Origin: an uncultured Rubrobacteraceae bacterium | Lineage (GTDB): Bacteria > Actinomycetota > Rubrobacteria > Rubrobacterales > Rubrobacteraceae | Direction: 5' to 3' | Assembly (NCBI GenBank): GCA_902806095.1 | Contig: CADCVF010000033.1 | Location: 1,570 to 39,730 of the forward strand | DNA length: 38,161 nucleotides | Shown: piece after piece, positions 1,265-36,415 of the stretch | How the letters are laid out: each line of letters opens with the position of its first letter | Position numbering within the stretch: position 1 is the first letter of the stretch | Notes under the pieces: model-generated | Databases searched by the model: none | What the model was told of the DNA's origin: nothing | What the model saw: only the letters and a program-made list of their open reading frames with translations | Position numbers and translations under genes: made by a program

Positions 1265-1368
1265 TGAGCGAATATGCTGAAAACCCCAGAGGAGTATCTA
1301 CCTGAGAATACACTCATTTGCAGGGGATTCGCAATCTAGAGAAACGCCGGGGAATGTATCAAGACTAA

Positions 1369-1410
1369 CTCTGAATCACTTAGTCCTGGTTCGAATCCAG
1401 GTCCGGCAGC
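1369..1410 (+). other. att core: 3' portion of tRNA-Gln(CUG)
   Basis: The segment begins in an anticodon loop CTCTGAA (anticodon CTG), continues through TCAC and TTAGTC, a T-arm CCTGG-TTCGAAT-CCAGG, then TCCGGCA and G. An acceptor 3' strand ending in A72 with discriminator G73 fits tRNA-Gln (identity pair U1:A72). No 5' half is present: the bases before the loop cannot form a proper anticodon stem, and no D-arm or TGCCGGA is seen upstream. It is therefore a duplicated tRNA 3' end left by integration, not a working tRNA. The integrase stop codon is 25 bases to the right. Confidence 0.8.
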
Positions 1411-1435
1411 TTCTAAACCACCTGCAAACGAGCAG

Positions 1436-2140
1436 TTATATGGGGAGACCCGGTGTTTCTACCGAGCCTCTTGACACCAACCTGACACCAACCCGAGAGA
1501 GGGCATCATCCATGGCACTCACGGCTTTCTCTTGCATGTCGGGCAGTACATGGGTGTAGGTGTCCATCGTCATGGAGATGTTCGCGTGCCCTAGCATCTC
1601 CTGCACTATCTTGGGATGCGTTCCCTTGGATAGTAGGAGCGTTGCGCATGTGTGCCTGAGATCGTGGAACCTGATTCGCGGCAAGTTGGTACGCTTCAGG
1701 AGCGGTCTGAATGAACGGTAGGTGAGATTCCCCACGTTCACGGGCGTGCCGATAGTCGAGGTGAACACTAAACTCGTCTCCTCCCACAAGGAGCCCGCTC
1801 TCGCCCGTTCCTCATTCTGCGCCTCCCTATGGGCCTTCAAGGCCTCAATCGCCATGTCGGTGAGCCTCACCACGCGCGCCTTGCCGCGCTTGGGTGCGGT
1901 GAAGGAGAGTCCGTCTCTGGTGCGGGTCAACTGCCGGCGCACCTGCAAGAGTTCGCGCTCGAGGTCGACGTCCTCCCAGCGCAGACCTAGCAGTTCGCCT
2001 TCCCGCAGCCCGGCGGTGATCGCCAAGATGTACAGGGCTCTCAAGCGGTCCTTGCGGACATTTTCGAGCAATCTCTTGGCCTGTGCTGGAGTAAGTGGTT
2101 GCATATCCTTCTTCGTTTGCCGAGGAGCCGAAGCTTGTCT
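1436..2140 (-). pseudogene. Tyrosine integrase lacking its N-terminal domain
   Basis: The catalytic domain of a phage/ICE-type tyrosine recombinase is intact: first Arg in TAGLREGELLGLRW, the HxxR box in RFHDLRHTCATL, GHANISM, and the nucleophile Tyr in MDTYTHV. Homology to the second integrase of this window starts about APR....MQPL (near 2130; internal Met at 2102-2104). Upstream the frame stays open to 2335 but only translates the structured repeat next door, so the core-binding and arm-binding domains (about 150-180 residues) are missing. A catalytic-domain fragment of about 222 residues is unlikely to integrate by itself. It faces the tRNA-Gln att core, its probable original target. Confidence 0.8.
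1472..1493 (+). repeat. Tandem 11-bp repeat TGACACCAACC x2 (candidate integrase arm sites)
   Basis: Two perfect adjacent copies of TGACACCAACC lie inside the 3' end of the integrase gene. They share CAnCAACC in the same orientation with the pair at 1243-1264. The tRNA-derived core lies between the two pairs, giving an attP-like layout. Confidence 0.45.
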
Positions 2141-2154
2141 TGCCGGAAGCACAT

Positions 2155-2370
2155 CGCAAAGTACCGACCGCATCGCCCGCACCGTCCGTAATGTGGTGTT
2201 TTGCAGGACTTTCTTGCGGTCGGTACTGCCATGAGTTATCGACCGCCATGGGATGGATACCGACCGCTCCCATAAGTACCGCCTGCTTATCGACCGCGTA
2301 GGAATGCGGCGTTTTGCAGGTCTTTCACCCAACATTTGACTCTTGCGGTCGATGCAGTCGGTACTTTGCG
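2155..2370 (+). repeat. Structured repeat, copy A (~216 bp)
   Basis: Bounded by a perfect 14-bp inverted repeat, CGCAAAGTACCGAC (2155-2168) and GTCGGTACTTTGCG (2357-2370). It contains a 68-bp unit (2160-2227) with perfect 13-bp ends AGTACCGACCGCA/TGCGGTCGGTACT, and about eight variants of TACCGACCGC or its complement. Two GTTTTGCAGG-CTTTC blocks occur (about 2199 and 2313). A homologous copy in the opposite orientation lies at 32569-32780. Candidates are a MITE-like element, an iteron-type origin or a protein-binding array. It sits exactly where the integrase lost its N-terminus. Confidence 0.8.
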
Positions 2371-2675
2371 AGTTCTTTCCTCATGGTTCGTATTGTTGGG
2401 TGAAGTGCGCCTCTGCGTGTATCCTTCTGCCAGGCAATATTCATACACCTGCCCAGCGACTACATTACCCCCACGGGTGTGTCGGCGTGAGCTGCTGGCA
2501 ACGGCGCACCCTGACATGGAGTCGGTCGCGACGACGGCCCCGCTGACGTCCCTCTCCATAATCGGGACGTGTGCTCTCCGAAGTTGATCTGCAACCGTGT
2601 ATGACAAAGGCGCTCGTAGGCAGTTCGGGCAAAGATGAAGTTCGCGATGGTCCGGCGAGTTGATGTTCTGGCAGC
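2371..2675. other. Gene-free stretch, nothing recognised
   Basis: No convincing gene. A minus-strand frame contains HLCPNCLRAPLSY and VYEYCLAEGYTQRR, faintly like a zinc-ribbon protein, but it has no supporting start and runs on into the repeat. The block directly right of copy A (TTTGCGAGTTCTTTCC) still resembles the flank of copy B. Confidence 0.4.
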
Positions 2676-27843: not shown

Positions 27844-29100
27844 TCAGGGCAGCGTGCGGCTCCTCCAGTAGGGCAGCAACCGCGGATCCCCGTAAGGCGG
27901 GCGAAGCATCACACTCGCGACGTTTAGAAAGGCTCGGCGGAAGTTACGGACATCTTCATAGCGCCACTTGGGGTCCGAGCAGCGCTGATTCCAGCCCTGC
28001 TGCAACGCGCGCCACGAGGGCCGTCCGATAAGCTTCGGGGCTTGCAGCTCGTCCTCCGAGGGCACCACGTCCACCTCGCCGTTGCCATCACAGAACGCTT
28101 CGTAGTCAGGCTTTTCAACCTCAGGAACCGCATTTTTCGCCTGTTCGGTGACGAAACCAAACAAGGCTAGGCTCCTCGCGGAGAGTGGACGGTTATCGCG
28201 ACCCTCCAACACCTCTTTTTGCATCTCTCGATAGTAGCGTAGGACGGTCTCGGCGGGTACCCAGGGCTCTGCCGTGAGAGTTATGGTCCCGCGCCCCATC
28301 TCGTCCCTCGAGAACGTTTCGATATGTCCAGCCAGGGCCACCACCGGCATCGCTTCACCCGTGAGCACAAATCGGGCGGCCTCAGCTTCCCCCCACGCGC
28401 GGCCAGAGTTCTCGGCAAGCCGGCCACTCACCTTCCGCAGCACGTCTAGAACCGAACCGACCTCAACCGGTATCTCCTCCAGGTAGCGCACGTTCAGTAT
28501 GTCCCTGTGGCTGAAGTCGAGTGGCTCGTAAGTGACCTTGCGGAAGCCTTCGCCCGGAGGATCGACGTAGATGTCGTCAAACCTGCACTCCAGCCCGTCC
28601 TCGTCTATGGCCCACCCGTCCGAGTAAACGTGTGAGTAATGCTCTCTTACGGGTATCTGCCGCTCGATGAACCAGGCTATGTCGAAGCACTGGTTGGCGG
28701 CGGATCTGACGAAGGCAAGCGCTTGTTCTGGGGTAAGAAGCTCGCCACCCAGAACCACCTTACGGAAGTAGCGGACGCGCGAGTCCAGCGAAGCACGCAG
28801 CGCCACGTGCTCTCCGAGGACCTCAGCGCGGTTCTTCTCGTAGGCGCCGAGTTCGGGCTTTACCTCCTTAGAGGAGTTCGTCGTGCCGGTTCCAGTGGAA
28901 CCGCGCACATTGGCCTCTGCGAGCGTTTGTTTGTAGGCCTTGAGCTGAATCCGGGTCTGATCGACCAGGTATTCCAACTCGAATTCTCCCTTCTCGTAGT
29001 CCTGGATCAGGTCCCTAGCTAGCAGGCTGTCCCAAACAGGATCTGGGACTCCGTCTCGCCTTAGTGCCTTCGCTAGCCGAACACGCGGCTCTTCGTACAT
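27844..29100 (-). CDS. 418-residue hypothetical protein of the mobile element
   Basis: No family recognised. The N-terminal third is helical and charged (LARDLIQDYEKGEFELEYLV, then a Thr/Ser-rich linker), the centre contains RVRYFRKVVLGGELLTPEQA and FVRSAANQCFDIAWFIE, and the C-terminal half is mixed with GRGTITLTAEPWVPAETVLR. Intact and long, with no membrane segment. It is divergent from the small genes that precede the replication module and is probably part of the same element. Start ATG 29100 has only a weak site (GGATG). Confidence 0.7.
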   Translation of the reverse strand: MYEEPRVRLAKALRRDGVPDPVWDSLLARDLIQDYEKGEFELEYLVDQTRIQLKAYKQTLAEANVRGSTGTGTTNSSKEVKPELGAYEKNRAEVLGEHVALRASLDSRVRYFRKVVLGGELLTPEQALAFVRSAANQCFDIAWFIERQIPVREHYSHVYSDGWAIDEDGLECRFDDIYVDPPGEGFRKVTYEPLDFSHRDILNVRYLEEIPVEVGSVLDVLRKVSGRLAENSGRAWGEAEAARFVLTGEAMPVVALAGHIETFSRDEMGRGTITLTAEPWVPAETVLRYYREMQKEVLEGRDNRPLSARSLALFGFVTEQAKNAVPEVEKPDYEAFCDGNGEVDVVPSEDELQAPKLIGRPSWRALQQGWNQRCSDPKWRYEDVRNFRRAFLNVASVMLRPPYGDPRLLPYWRSRTLP

Positions 29101-29879: not shown

Positions 29880-30434
29880 GTGCAAGGGTATAACCTTCAC
29901 CCGGACGGAACAATGCCGTCCTTCAGCAATCTGGACGAAATCAACACCATGAGCGTCCCCGAGGCGGCCATCGATTACCAGGGCCGCGGTCTCACTGTAA
30001 CCCCACTTCATGGCAAAAGGCCCGTACTTCGAAGGTGGCAAGAGCGCTACCTCAGCGAGAGCGAACTGCCCGATTACTTCGTCGACGGGCGCAACCTCGG
30101 AATAGTGCTTGGCGGCGCCGCCGCTGCCGGCCTGGTAGATGTAGACCTCGACAACCCCGTGGCCGTCGACGTGGCGGATCTTCTCCTGCCGGACACCGTG
30201 AAGAGCGGCAGAATGAAGAATCCACGCTCGCATCACTGGTTTGTCTGCGATCCTGCTCCTCCCTCAAGGAGATACTTCCTGACCAAGCCCATGGTCGACC
30301 GTTTGATGATCGAGTCCGGAGAGGCAACGCTGGTGGAGTTGCGGAGCACAGGACATCAAACCGTAGTCGCGCCGAGCATCCATCCTGTAGACGGTGACCG
30401 CTATATGTGGCACCAGGCGAGATATGCGAGATAG
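29880..30434 (+). CDS. Primase-polymerase (prim-pol), N-terminal part, frameshifted
   Basis: 184 residues from GTG 29880, after AGGAAGGAG. Archaeo-eukaryotic primase superfamily, bifunctional prim-pol type: AAIDYQGRGLTVTPLHGKRP, metal-binding Asp87/Asp89 in GLVDVDLDNP, SHHWFV, and VELRSTGHQTVVAPSIHP. It would prime or synthesise DNA for the element. The frame ends at DRYMWHQARYAR, whereas the next frame begins with the expected continuation, so one indel near 30405-30415 splits the protein. The catalytic half is complete. Confidence 0.85.
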   Translation: MQGYNLHPDGTMPSFSNLDEINTMSVPEAAIDYQGRGLTVTPLHGKRPVLRRWQERYLSESELPDYFVDGRNLGIVLGGAAAAGLVDVDLDNPVAVDVADLLLPDTVKSGRMKNPRSHHWFVCDPAPPSRRYFLTKPMVDRLMIESGEATLVELRSTGHQTVVAPSIHPVDGDRYMWHQARYAR

Positions 30435-30793
30435 ACGGCGAGGAGCTGGCCGGTCTCGTCCTCGACGTCGCCGTCGCCGCCCTACTTGCTATCAACCGCC
30501 CTTTGGGCAGCCGAGAGTGGTTTCTCATCCATGCCTTCGGCTTCCTGTGCCCGCGCTTAGGACCAGAGCAGGCCCAGAGAATCGTGGAGGCCGCCTCGAT
30601 GGCCTTCGACGACGAGGAGCACGACGAGCGGATGCTGGCGGTGCACTCGTTTCTGCGCAAGCCCGTCGACGACGACGCCCCGATGATGGAGGGTCTCCTG
30701 GCGGCGGAGTTAGAGAGACTGGCCCCAGGCGTCCTCGGCGCCATCTCCCGTTGGTATGAACGAGGCCGTCGCCATCGGGGAGGTGCGAGATGA
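30407..30793 (+). CDS. Prim-pol C-terminal part (split by frameshift)
   Basis: 128 residues opening at GTG 30407 with APGEICEIDGEELAGLVLDV, the linker that normally follows the VWH strand of prim-pol, then a helical primase C-terminal-like domain (SREWFLIHAFGFLCPRLGPE, ERLAPGVLGAISRWYERG). Together with the preceding frame it gives a protein of about 310 residues. Either a frameshift mutation, a sequencing error, or programmed frameshifting. It overlaps the next gene by four bases (ATGA). Confidence 0.65.
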   Translation: MAPGEICEIDGEELAGLVLDVAVAALLAINRPLGSREWFLIHAFGFLCPRLGPEQAQRIVEAASMAFDDEEHDERMLAVHSFLRKPVDDDAPMMEGLLAAELERLAPGVLGAISRWYERGRRHRGGAR

Positions 30794-32433
30794 GCCAGGT
30801 CCAAGACATCATTCGTTACGCTAGGGAGGGCGCCTGGCTCTTCCACGCCCCCGACGGAACCGCCTACGCGGCCGTCGAGGTCGATGGCCACCTCGAGACC
30901 CACTCGATAAGGAGCGTCCGCTTTAGGGATTGGATCCTGATTCGCTTTCTCCACCAACACGGCAGAGCCCCCAACTCCCAGTTGCTCACCGACGCCCTCA
31001 ACACCATCAGGGCCATCGCCGTCTACCACGGGCCTGAGATGCTCGTGTTCGTCAGGGTCGCCGAGCACGAGGGCGACGTATTCATAGACCTCGGCAACGA
31101 AAACTGGGATGTGGTAAGGGTCACGCGCGAGGGCTACGAGATCGTTCCCCGTCCGCCTGTCGGGTTCGTGCGCAAGGCCGGCTTCGCCAGGCTGCCCTAC
31201 CCGGTCGACGTCGCCGTCGATGACCTCAGGCCTTTCCTGAACCTCGCAACCGACGGCGACTTCATGCTGGTGGCGGCCTGGGCGGCTTTCTCCCTGAGCC
31301 CGCGGGGACCCTACCCCGTCCTCGTCTTACAGGGCGAGCAGGGCTCGGCCAAATCCACCACCGTCAGGGTGCTACGTTCCCTCGTCGACCCTGCCGTCGA
31401 GCCTTTAAGGGCTTTGCCCAAGAACGAGCGCGACCTGGCCATAGCCGCCGGTAACGCGTGGGTCTTGGCCTTCGACAATCTCAGCGGCATCCGCGACCAG
31501 CTCTCCGACGCCCTGTGCCGCCTGGCCACGGGTGGCGGATTCGCCACCCGCCAGCTCTACACCGACGACGAGGAGATCATCTTCAGCGCCAAACGCCCTA
31601 TCATATTGAATGGAATTGACGACATAGCCACCCGCGGCGACCTGCAGGAGCGCTCGCTCCTGATCTCGCTGCCCTCCATACCTGAGGAGCGGCGCGTCGA
31701 GGAGGTTGCGTTCTGGGCGGACTTCCAGGCTGCTAAGCCCAGGATATTCGGGGCGCTGCTTGAAGGGGTGAGTGCGGCCTTACGCAAGGCAGATGATGTT
31801 CATCTGGAACGCAAGCCCCGCATGGCCGATTTCGCGATCAGGGCCACTGCCATGGAGGAGTGCTTCGGGTGGGAGCCAGGCTCCTTCGTCGAGATCTACT
31901 CGGCCAACCGCCAGCAGGCCAGCGAGACGCTACTCGCAAACGAGCCAATCGCCGACGCCATCGAGAAGCTCCTAGGGGATGGTCGAGAGAACGTCTGGAT
32001 CGGTACGGCCACAGAGTTGCTGGAGATGCTGGGCTTCTACGTAAACGACACCGTCAAGCGCTCAAGAGCTTGGCCAGGAGGACCGCAGGCGCTGAGCCGC
32101 AGGCTGAAGCGTATGGCGCCGGCCCTGAGGTCTGCGGGCATCGAGTACACCGAGCACGAACAGGGCCACCGCAAGCGGAAGGTCAAGGTCCTCAGGAAGC
32201 TCGTTTGGGGCGATGAGCAAGCTCAGGACACCGGCGAAGAAACCAGCGAGGATGAGGTCTCCGATGACGAGGCCTCCGATGACGAGGCCTTCGATGACGA
32301 GGCCTCCGACGGCGAAGAAGACCACGAGGAGCAGCCCGATACCCATGGCAAAGAACGGAGGCGCGGCAACCCCTTCAGGTCTCGCTTCGACTTCGACAAC
32401 CCACGCGAACCAGAGGATCAGGGGGCAGAGTGA
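30790..32433 (+). CDS. Primase/helicase-type ATPase of an integrative element
   Basis: 547 residues. ATPase core with Walker A GEQGSAKST (182-190) and Walker B VLAFDN (225-230), followed by a sensor-like IILNGIDDIATRGDLQERSL with an Arg finger candidate. The layout matches plasmid and phage primase-helicases that unwind DNA at an origin. A winged-helix-like region (QALSRRLKRMAPALRSAGIE) precedes an acidic tail of repeated SDDEA units (about 475-505) made of a near-perfect 15-bp repeat. The start overlaps the prim-pol stop, so both act together in replication. Confidence 0.8.
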   Translation: MSQVQDIIRYAREGAWLFHAPDGTAYAAVEVDGHLETHSIRSVRFRDWILIRFLHQHGRAPNSQLLTDALNTIRAIAVYHGPEMLVFVRVAEHEGDVFIDLGNENWDVVRVTREGYEIVPRPPVGFVRKAGFARLPYPVDVAVDDLRPFLNLATDGDFMLVAAWAAFSLSPRGPYPVLVLQGEQGSAKSTTVRVLRSLVDPAVEPLRALPKNERDLAIAAGNAWVLAFDNLSGIRDQLSDALCRLATGGGFATRQLYTDDEEIIFSAKRPIILNGIDDIATRGDLQERSLLISLPSIPEERRVEEVAFWADFQAAKPRIFGALLEGVSAALRKADDVHLERKPRMADFAIRATAMEECFGWEPGSFVEIYSANRQQASETLLANEPIADAIEKLLGDGRENVWIGTATELLEMLGFYVNDTVKRSRAWPGGPQALSRRLKRMAPALRSAGIEYTEHEQGHRKRKVKVLRKLVWGDEQAQDTGEETSEDEVSDDEASDDEAFDDEASDGEEDHEEQPDTHGKERRRGNPFRSRFDFDNPREPEDQGAE

Positions 32434-32568
32434 CGGACTAACCGGATCGTCATTCCGCGGACCTTGACCAGGTCTCTGCGGGGAAGTACGGGGCGGGCAT
32501 CGGGATGACACTGGTGCCCGCCTCATCCGTCATAAAGTACGGCGAACACTGAAGGCAACGGAGAACTT

Positions 32569-32780
32569 CGTAAAACACCGACCGCACCGACCGCTCCGAA
32601 GTTGAAGTGTAAGAAAGACCTGGTAAACCGCCGATTCCTATGTGTTACTCCGCGGTCGCTATCCCCGGCGGACGATATAGCCGTCTCCGTACGTGGTATT
32701 TACGAAGAATACCGACCGCATGAAAGGCCTGCAAATGACCATATTATCGATGATGCGGGCGTTGCGGTCGGTATTTTGTG
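32569..32780 (-). repeat. Structured repeat, copy B (~212 bp, inverted relative to copy A)
   Basis: On the minus strand it aligns end to end with copy A. Its 68-bp unit 32708-32775 has perfect 13-bp ends AATACCGACCGCA/TGCGGTCGGTATT and matches the corresponding 68 bases of copy A at 56 positions by hand count. Also shared: TAGGAAT-CGGCG, CAGGTCTTTC, GCGGTCG-TGC-GTCGGT. It lies 135 bases after the helicase gene. Confidence 0.8.
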
Positions 32781-32831
32781 GATGTTGCGACAGAAGTTCG
32801 TCCTCCTGGCCGTCCCGATCTGCCGACCTCG

Positions 32832-32905
32832 ACCATAGCCCTCCAGAACCGCCTCGAACGCCGTTGAAGCCGCCGCGCGGGTCCTCGATGACCCAGAGGG
32901 CCTGA
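32832..32905 (-). pseudogene. Short coding remnant with a GFNxV motif, copy 1
   Basis: Minus-strand frame reads QALWVIEDPRGGFNGVRGGS then GGLW. It shares its pattern and many bases with the fragment at 34546 (VEGPPHGFNEVYSGFEELW). Family unknown; probably the end of a gene carried by a repeated mobile sequence. Confidence 0.35.
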
Positions 32906-32945
32906 AACCCATGCTGCGGTCTTCCAAGCGGCTTACATATCCGGA

Positions 32946-34339: not shown

Positions 34340-34545
34340 CTAATAATCAGTTCCTTCCAAGAACCTTCAGTATATGCGGCAGGAGCCTTCTGGACTAATC
34401 CGGCTCGATATGGCCCTCTAAGCCCGCGAAGTGGGGTCTGGGAGCGAGAAGAGTTTACTCAAAGGGGACATGGGACCGCGACGCACCCCTGACATAGGCC
34501 GGTAAAGGTTCCCGTTTCCTTTGCCTACCCCCAAGCCATGATCCT

Positions 34546-34620
34546 CCAGAGCTCCTCAAAGCCGCTGTAAACTTCGTTGAAGCCGTGAGGCGGACCCTCG
34601 ACGGCCCTGGGACCTTGCAC
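34546..34620 (-). pseudogene. Short coding remnant with a GFNxV motif, copy 2
   Basis: Minus-strand frame reads GPRAVEGPPHGFNEVYSGFE then ELWRIMAW. Aligned without gaps to the fragment at 32832, GFN, V, G and LW coincide. It lies between the truncated TetR gene and the insertion sequence. Family unknown. Confidence 0.35.
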
Positions 34621-34667
34621 ATGGGACAATGGCCTAAAATGGCTTGTACACGCCTGCGCCAGGACAG

Positions 34668-35677
34668 GTCTAAGACGAGTGATGTGCAACGAGCTAGACC
34701 AACAGGTCCGCCAGATGGCGCAGCGGTCGGCCGAGGGAGTCGTTGATCTGTTGTGCGCAGGTGTAGGCCGCGATCTTGGCGGCCAGACGCGTCAGCAGCC
34801 CTCCCAACGTCTTCGCACGATGACGCTCCAAGCCGAAGAAGTCCTTGAGTTGGCCGATCACCCCTTCGATGATCTGGCGTTTGCCAGAGGCCCAGCGGCG
34901 ATCGGACTTCGACCACGCCCGCCGGGAGTTGTTTTTCGGGGCGGCCGCAACGAGCGCGTCGTAAACCTCTAGCCACAGCCGCTCCCACTCGACCCCCGTG
35001 AAGCCCTTGTCGGCCAGGTAGGCTCCGTGGCGGTCTTGGGCTATGAGGGCCTCCCCTATAGGCCTCTCGTCCGAGGCTGCAGCAGCCAGCCCGAAAGCGG
35101 TGATTACGCCCTCGGGGTCCACCACCAGCGCCACCTTGAAGCCGTAGATCCACTCGGTCTTGGAGGCGCTGCGTCCGAAGCTCGCTTGGCCGGCGAACAG
35201 CCCCTTGCGGCAAGCCCTCACCCTCACGATCGCCGGGATGAGGGTCGTGTCCAAGACGCGGTAGACCGCCGAAGGCTCCGAAAGCTCCTCGGCGAAGGTA
35301 CGCTGCAAGAGGCGCAACTCTGGCTCCAGGGCTCGGACACGCCGGTTGAGTTGGCCTTGGGAGCACAACCTCGGGAAGTAGGGGCGCAGGTGCGCATGTG
35401 CGAAGCGCCAGAAGTCGCGCTCGCTGCGGAAGCGAGGCCACTGGGCGAGGATGGCCAGGGTGAGGACCTCCGAGTCGCTCAGGAGAGCGGGACGGCCGGG
35501 GCGGCGTGTGGCCGAGGGGTGGTTGGCCTTCCACCAGTCGTCTATCTGGACGTACAATGAAACCAAGAAGGAGTCGAGATCCACTATGGGGCACCGCCTT
35601 TGGGAGAAGGTTCGGTGCCAGCATAAGGTTTCGGCTCCTTCCTCGTCGTCTGCAATTACGCATCAGTCGTCTAAGAC
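34668..35677 (-). mobile_element. IS982-like insertion sequence (~1010 bp)
   Basis: Imperfect terminal inverted repeats: left GTCTAAGACGAGTGATG, right (reverse complement) GTCTTAGACGACTGATG, extending with G-AA matches. They enclose one transposase gene. Element length fits IS982 family members (about 1 kb). The right end lies inside the second integrase gene. The sequence left of the element does not continue the integrase, and no target duplication is seen, so a deletion probably followed insertion. Confidence 0.8.
34694..35584 (-). CDS. IS982-like DDE transposase
   Basis: 296 residues. LLSDSEVLTLAILAQWPRFR and SERDFWRFAHAHLRPYFPRL are the IS982/IS4-like N-terminal pattern. The catalytic acids are in VLDTTLIPA (first Asp), ADKGFTG (second Asp) and RQIIEGVIGQLKDFF (Glu, in a YREK-like helix). 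Complete and uninterrupted, so potentially active. It cuts and pastes the element between its inverted repeats. Confidence 0.88.
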   Translation of the reverse strand: MDLDSFLVSLYVQIDDWWKANHPSATRRPGRPALLSDSEVLTLAILAQWPRFRSERDFWRFAHAHLRPYFPRLCSQGQLNRRVRALEPELRLLQRTFAEELSEPSAVYRVLDTTLIPAIVRVRACRKGLFAGQASFGRSASKTEWIYGFKVALVVDPEGVITAFGLAAAASDERPIGEALIAQDRHGAYLADKGFTGVEWERLWLEVYDALVAAAPKNNSRRAWSKSDRRWASGKRQIIEGVIGQLKDFFGLERHRAKTLGGLLTRLAAKIAAYTCAQQINDSLGRPLRHLADLLV

Positions 35678-36388
35678 ATGGCGACCTGCTTCCCGCACTA
35701 GAGCACGCCCCACGCGCAGTGTCCCACGCTCCAGGTCCACGTCCTTCCAGCGAAGTCCCAAGAGTTCGCCGCGCCTTAGGCCTGTGCTGATCCCCAACAT
35801 ATACAGGGGCTCAAAGCGGTCGTCGCGTGCGGCGTCCAAGAACGCGCGAGCCTCGGCTTCTGAGAGTGGTTGCATCTCTTCCGGAGCTGGACGGGGCGCA
35901 TTCACGTCGGCAGCGTTGCGCGGGATCAGTCCATCCGCGACGGCCTGTGAGAGCGCCTTGTGGAGGGTAGAGTGGATCTTGCGAACCGTGGCGGGGGCGA
36001 GCCCGGCATCCAGCTTCTCGCTGTGTAGCCCGCGCACGTGCGCTGGGGTGAGTTTCTTGAGCCCAACACGCCCCACAGACGGCTTGATGTGCAGTCGTAT
36101 GATTCCTTCGTGACGCTCGGAGTTTGAAGGGCGTACCGTGCCCCTCACGGAGTCGGAAAGCCAGCTGTCCAGGTGCTCCCCTACCGTTAGATTCCCCGCG
36201 TCGAAGATGAGCCCGCCGTTCCTGTCCGCCATAGCCTTGGTGAGCTTATCCGCCACCACTGCCCTGGTCTTGCCGTAGAGGTAGCGATACTGGGGGCCCG
36301 TGGCGGTGTATACGGTGTATTGCCCGACCCAGCGCCCGTCTTTGCGTCGGTAGATACTTCCCTCTCCGTTGCCTCGCTTCTTGCTCAC
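35663..36388 (-). pseudogene. Tyrosine integrase truncated by the insertion sequence
   Basis: About 241 residues from GTG 36388-36386 (AAAGGAGG upstream; ATG 36415 is the alternative). N-terminal arm-binding region RGNGEGSIYRRKDGRWVGQY, a SAM-like core-binding domain (TVGEHLDSWLSDSV, LTPAHVRGLH, ATVRKIHSTLHKALSQAVAD), then the start of the catalytic domain MQPLSEAEARAFLDAA and first Arg in STGLRRGELLGLRW. It ends at GRHVLDD with a stop supplied by the insertion-sequence end. The HxxR box and Tyr are lost, so it cannot recombine. It is a paralogue of the integrase at 1436. Confidence 0.85.
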
Positions 36389-36415
36389 CCTTCTGCGCCT
36401 CCTTTGTCGACTCAT

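Follow-up and report, generated by a model that had tools for sequence, protein, structure and literature searches.

The phased repeats in a 38,161-nucleotide stretch of DNA (the window) from an uncultured Rubrobacteraceae bacterium are most probably (probability of roughly 0.8) the iterons of the replication origin of prim-pol/helicase integrative elements, read by the element's own helicase. They form two arrays: copy A (2145-2380, minus strand), a solo array of nine TAYCGACCGC-type sites, and copy B (32565-32785, plus strand), which has seven sites, is inverted relative to copy A and is the proposed origin of a prim-pol/helicase element. The layout of the array is conserved, the array is linked to the helicase gene, and the iteron word covaries with the winged helix of the helicase.

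All eight sites listed in a preliminary description of this DNA were located, and match TACCGACCGC with zero to two mismatches. Copy A holds one further site, CATCGCCCGC at 2171 on the plus strand, which forms a 9-bp-spaced pair with TACCGACCGC at 2162 (2162-2180, plus strand) and thereby adds a second such pair to that of CATCGACCGC (2345) and TACCGACTGC (2354) on the minus strand (2345-2363). Between the two pairs lie TACCGACCGC (2216-2225, minus strand) and, on the plus strand, TATCGACCGC (2237-2246), TACCGACCGC (2258-2267), the degenerate TACCGCCTGC (2277-2286) and TATCGACCGC (2288-2297), and the array is bounded by 37-nt terminal inverted repeats that are 84% complementary (2145-2181 and 2344-2380). 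The sites of copy B are at 32576, 32585, 32652, 32668, 32710, 32755 and 32764, and the two copies can be aligned to each other in inverted orientation. A position-weight scan, whose weights were derived in part from the copy A and B sites themselves, returned nine sites in A and six strong sites in B against an expectation of 0.22 per 240 bp (Poisson: P = 2e-12 for A and P = 1e-7 for B, before correction for about 160 windows). No AT-rich melting region was seen, no 40-bp stretch in A or B exceeding 55% AT. The inverted orientation of A and B might suggest a single transposon with one copy at either end. We rejected this reading, as the interval contains SDR, thiolase, amidase and transporter genes, and other copies of the array are solo or in direct orientation.

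Homologous copies were sought by DNA and profile searches in 39 genomes of the family, and the same array was found in G021, G035 and G037 and at C82:1739 of the source genome. Counted from the last site in the orientation of copy B, the site offsets are -192, -183, -126, -115, -96, -75, -54, -9 and 0 in copy A, and -192, -183, -126, -114, -95, -75, -54, -9 and 0 in L054, which comes from another genus of the family and is about 72% identical to copy A where alignable; all nine positions thus agree to 1 bp. The remaining copies keep most positions, with a few sites shifted or missing, and identity between copies is 77% in iteron columns vs 52% in spacers. Since the offsets are nearly constant across homologous copies, where the preliminary description had named loss of phasing as the refuting observation, the phasing is a conserved property of the array. 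The helical character that had been claimed for it holds for the internal sites, which are spaced at 19-21 bp, but the spacing kept across the wider family is that of the 9-bp tandems at both ends (0.86 turn).

Copy B lies about 130 bp downstream of the stop codon of a gene on the same strand (30790-32433, plus strand) for a helicase of 547 residues. Sequence searches with this protein gave no significant match in the PDB and only sub-threshold matches in Pfam. In the AlphaFold2 model (mean pLDDT = 85.5), about residues 386-470 form a helix, a strand, helices and two strands, as in a winged helix, with a disordered tail after them; Foldseek matched the model to the C-terminal region of NrS-1, SCCmec Cch (5dgk), SaPI5 Rep (7ola) and D5/E5-type helicases. 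The protein is predicted to be a hexameric helicase with a C-terminal DNA-binding domain, and we propose it as the iteron-binding initiator. The preliminary description had stated that the element has no recognised initiator, which is contradicted by this predicted winged helix and by the iteron array 3′ of the gene in most relatives. Searches for relatives of the helicase yielded matches in 10 family genomes (source genome included), 48 genome loci belonging to many phyla and eight viral contigs. A Prim-Pol domain (PF09250) is encoded by a separate ORF 5′ of the helicase gene (29880-30434, plus strand), the frame of which is broken near 30430, the remainder seemingly lying in another frame when inspected by eye. 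The copy B element looks decayed and, with this frame broken, is probably inactive; neither an integrase nor a pair of att repeats was found for it in the window.

We tested for the array at the 3′ end of the helicase gene in 53 loci from many phyla, with Rubrobacter, Thermus, Proteobacteria, Chloroflexi, Planctomycetes and archaea among the sources. The test took 450 bp at the helicase 3′ end, and called for a 7-mer repeated as a tandem pair at a spacing of 8-13, followed 40-320 bp after the first pair by an inverted tandem pair. It was passed by 34 of the 53 helicase loci vs 38 of 825 windows taken elsewhere in these loci (Fisher's exact test: P = 9e-28), and a 9-bp spacing was found in 31 of the 53 loci vs two of 1060 dinucleotide shuffles. 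Direct reading nevertheless reveals an array in at least two of the 19 loci that failed this strict test, namely L105 (locus of L053) and L144 (locus of L061). The layout, with terminal tandem sets in opposite orientation, persists while the iteron word varies between elements: it is ACCGTCACG in L057, ATCGTCCCG in L059, TAATTCCAC in L060, TAATGCCAC in L061, CAACCACCG in Thermus/Meiothermus (with arrays at the helicase 3′ end in the Thermus loci L135, L139 and L142) and TTTGCGTCA in L125. In several relatives, internal sites are 18-22 bp apart, and in several the array lies within the coding sequence of the helicase tail. Iteron similarity was significantly correlated with identity of the winged-helix/C-terminal domain (28 loci, Mantel test: rho = 0.22, P = 0.003), but not with identity of the ATPase domain (rho = 0.07, P = 0.22); the covariation is modest and driven mainly by the closest pairs. 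The non-iteron motif AAAGWCCTGCAAA seemed conserved in Rubrobacter arrays and was discarded, as it is exact in only two of the 53 loci of the wider set and, with one mismatch allowed, shows no enrichment there (7 of 53 vs 135 of 963 other windows).

Copy A does not belong to the copy B element as a working part but sits within what is left of a different integrated element. It adjoins a tyrosine integrase gene (1436-2150, minus strand) that retains the catalytic part, lacks the N-terminal half and ends at the copy A boundary, and beyond this gene lies the 3′ half of a tRNA-Gln gene (1368-1411, plus strand), an att site. Two complete relatives have att repeats, integrase and primase-helicase all present, L060 in an element of 7.3 kb with a 45-bp att repeat at tRNA-Val, and L057 in one of 8.9 kb with a 43-bp att repeat at tRNA-Arg and one in-frame stop in the helicase gene. 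Their gene order is att, int, other genes, origin and helicase, and eight ORFs from the two gave integrase, HicA, HTH, primase-related and TubC_N domains, with no terminase or capsid among them. Copy A matches this arrangement in order and orientation but lacks the helicase and the genes in between, and therefore reads as an origin remnant left by deletion beside a truncated integrase at the tRNA-Gln att site. The TubC_N docking domain (PF18563) of L057 (8427-8774) is in the gene after the helicase, as in several Rubrobacter elements, and is unusual beside replication genes. C33:1-1572 and positions 1-1411 of the window hold an element that carries a PAPS-reductase-like gene and another, large gene and ends at the 3′ half of tRNA-Gln. 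The intact tRNA-Gln of the source genome (C2:54688-54759) is accompanied by another integrase, both near the end of contig C2 (54688-57388); contigs C2 and C33 therefore probably join. Elsewhere in the window (34455-36415), a second integrase gene, with its N-terminal part at 35663-36415, runs into an ORF that, by eye, looks like that of an IS982-type transposase.

Solo arrays also stand between ordinary genes at L051, L052, L054, L055, L056 and C82:1739, and several solo copies so placed are in G000, G021, G035 and G037. They have terminal inverted repeats and often share with copy B a further segment, the "tail" (32810-32945, plus strand, by copy B), of about 130-170 bp with a hairpin-like core (CTTCAAAGTCGCCTTAAAGGCCATTGAAG in L055). 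The tail is common to copy B and most solo arrays, being also present at C82:1850-2100, L052:2468-2637, L052:4692-4775 and L055:8842-8928, and it occurs once without an array (G024:C1:4040030-4040201). A search of G035 and of G037, the latter only 75% complete, gave no match to the helicase, and solo arrays from two genera keep the nine-site layout and the tail, even in the absence of any helicase match. Contig C82 carries in addition a repeat of about 36 bp (L095:2247-2282) that is dispersed, often in many copies, in most if not all of the genus's genomes.

Other functions can be envisaged for such repeats. The position of copy A, bordering the integrase gene on its 5′ side and close to the att site, would suit arm-type or excisionase sites or an operator of that integrase; this is very unlikely to be the role of the repeats, given that the integrase is truncated at copy A, that copy B and most arrays of relatives are instead by the helicase 3′ end, and that other genes separate the array from int and att in L060 and L057. 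Inverted, phased short repeats are found at par and operator sites as well, and the array might be a centromere or operator bound by another protein of the element, such as the 418-residue product (27844-29100, minus strand) that the preliminary description had put forward as a possible binder. We consider this quite improbable too. The 418-residue gene matches only one of 52 relative loci and is not conserved with the arrays, its product has no Pfam match, no detectable DNA-binding domain and no relative among the compared family loci, and the iteron word tracks the C-terminal domain of the helicase. The idea of an initiator-bound array is supported, with the helicase as a better candidate for the binder than the 418-residue protein.

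The intergenic position of several solo copies, with their terminal inverted repeats and frequent tail, is also what one would see if the solo arrays, copy A included, were dispersed repeats of a MITE-like or REP-like kind, with copy B as one more insertion that happened to land beside a helicase gene. This is unlikely as a general account, since the same layout built from unrelated words follows the helicase gene across phyla, which ties the layout to the helicase; moreover, neither a target duplication nor an empty site has been established for the solo copies, G023 carrying the flanking gene for an empty-site comparison. The solo copies themselves could nevertheless lead a repeat-like life. 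They might even, though we regard this as rather doubtful, be more than scars, either bare origins that travel as passengers and use a resident element's helicase in trans for their replication, or decoys in the chromosome by which this helicase is titrated. The solo arrays of G035 and G037, in which no helicase was found, are a point against the origin model. A structured noncoding RNA would account for the folding of copy A, which is far better than that of its shuffles (z = -7.8), but is scarcely credible: copy B has no clear folding advantage over its shuffles (z = -1.4), no Rfam family was matched, and the differences between the arms are noncompensatory (GACCGC vs GCGGGC).

Under the preferred reading of the repeats as origin iterons, we infer binding, hexamer loading, melting and priming as follows. 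The origin would lie at the 3′ end of the helicase gene, as copy B does, and helicase monomers would bind the 9-bp-spaced iterons via their C-terminal winged helix, and the two inverted terminal tandem sets would seat two hexamers face to face. The DNA between the hexamers would then open and be primed by the prim-pol. Copy A would represent the same type of origin, still in place although the rest of its element has been deleted.

This arrangement resembles that of SaPIs and other PICIs, the origins of which are two sets of iterons directly 3′ of rep (Rep being a self-loading helicase), with an iteron word that varies between elements (PMC6092414), and in which Rep and Cch2 bind the origin directly downstream of their gene through a C-terminal dsDNA-binding domain (PMC7581432). 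Such a domain is predicted here, and the helicase matches SaPI5 Rep (7ola) in fold, although sequence identity between the two is only about 10%. The arrays described here differ in combining 9-bp tandem sites at either end with internal sites spaced at 18-22 bp, in showing no AT-rich tract between the sets, and in often lying inside the helicase coding sequence, and no PICI gene set was seen. The P4 alpha protein is likewise a primase-helicase initiator that binds its origin repeats with a winged helix (PMC4234260), which is predicted for the present helicase, but in P4 a TOPRIM primase is fused to the helicase, whereas here an archaeo-eukaryotic prim-pol (PF09250) is encoded by a separate ORF. 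ORF904 of pRN1 shares prim-pol, helicase, winged helix and an origin just downstream of the gene (PMC4234260); that origin, however, is a 100-bp stem-loop without iterons, in contrast to the iterons found here and to the folding of copy B. There is also some likeness in gene content to the ICETh2-like elements of Thermus, which, according to the accessible part of their description (PMC7693054), have a tRNA att repeat, tyrosine integrase, excisionase, prim-pol, helicase and sometimes HicA/B. The Thermus matches found here carry arrays at the helicase 3′ end, but that part of the description defines no origin, and for ICETh2-like elements the array is only predicted.

Integrative elements with a prim-pol and a helicase are widespread and little studied, and in the literature searched, including the accessible parts of the ICETh2 and AEP-family papers, we found no report of iteron origins for them. 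Our result predicts the location of the origin and the iteron word in about 30 elements from many phyla, together with the domain that would read the word, and these natural pairs of iteron and winged helix may serve as a set for working out the rules of recognition.
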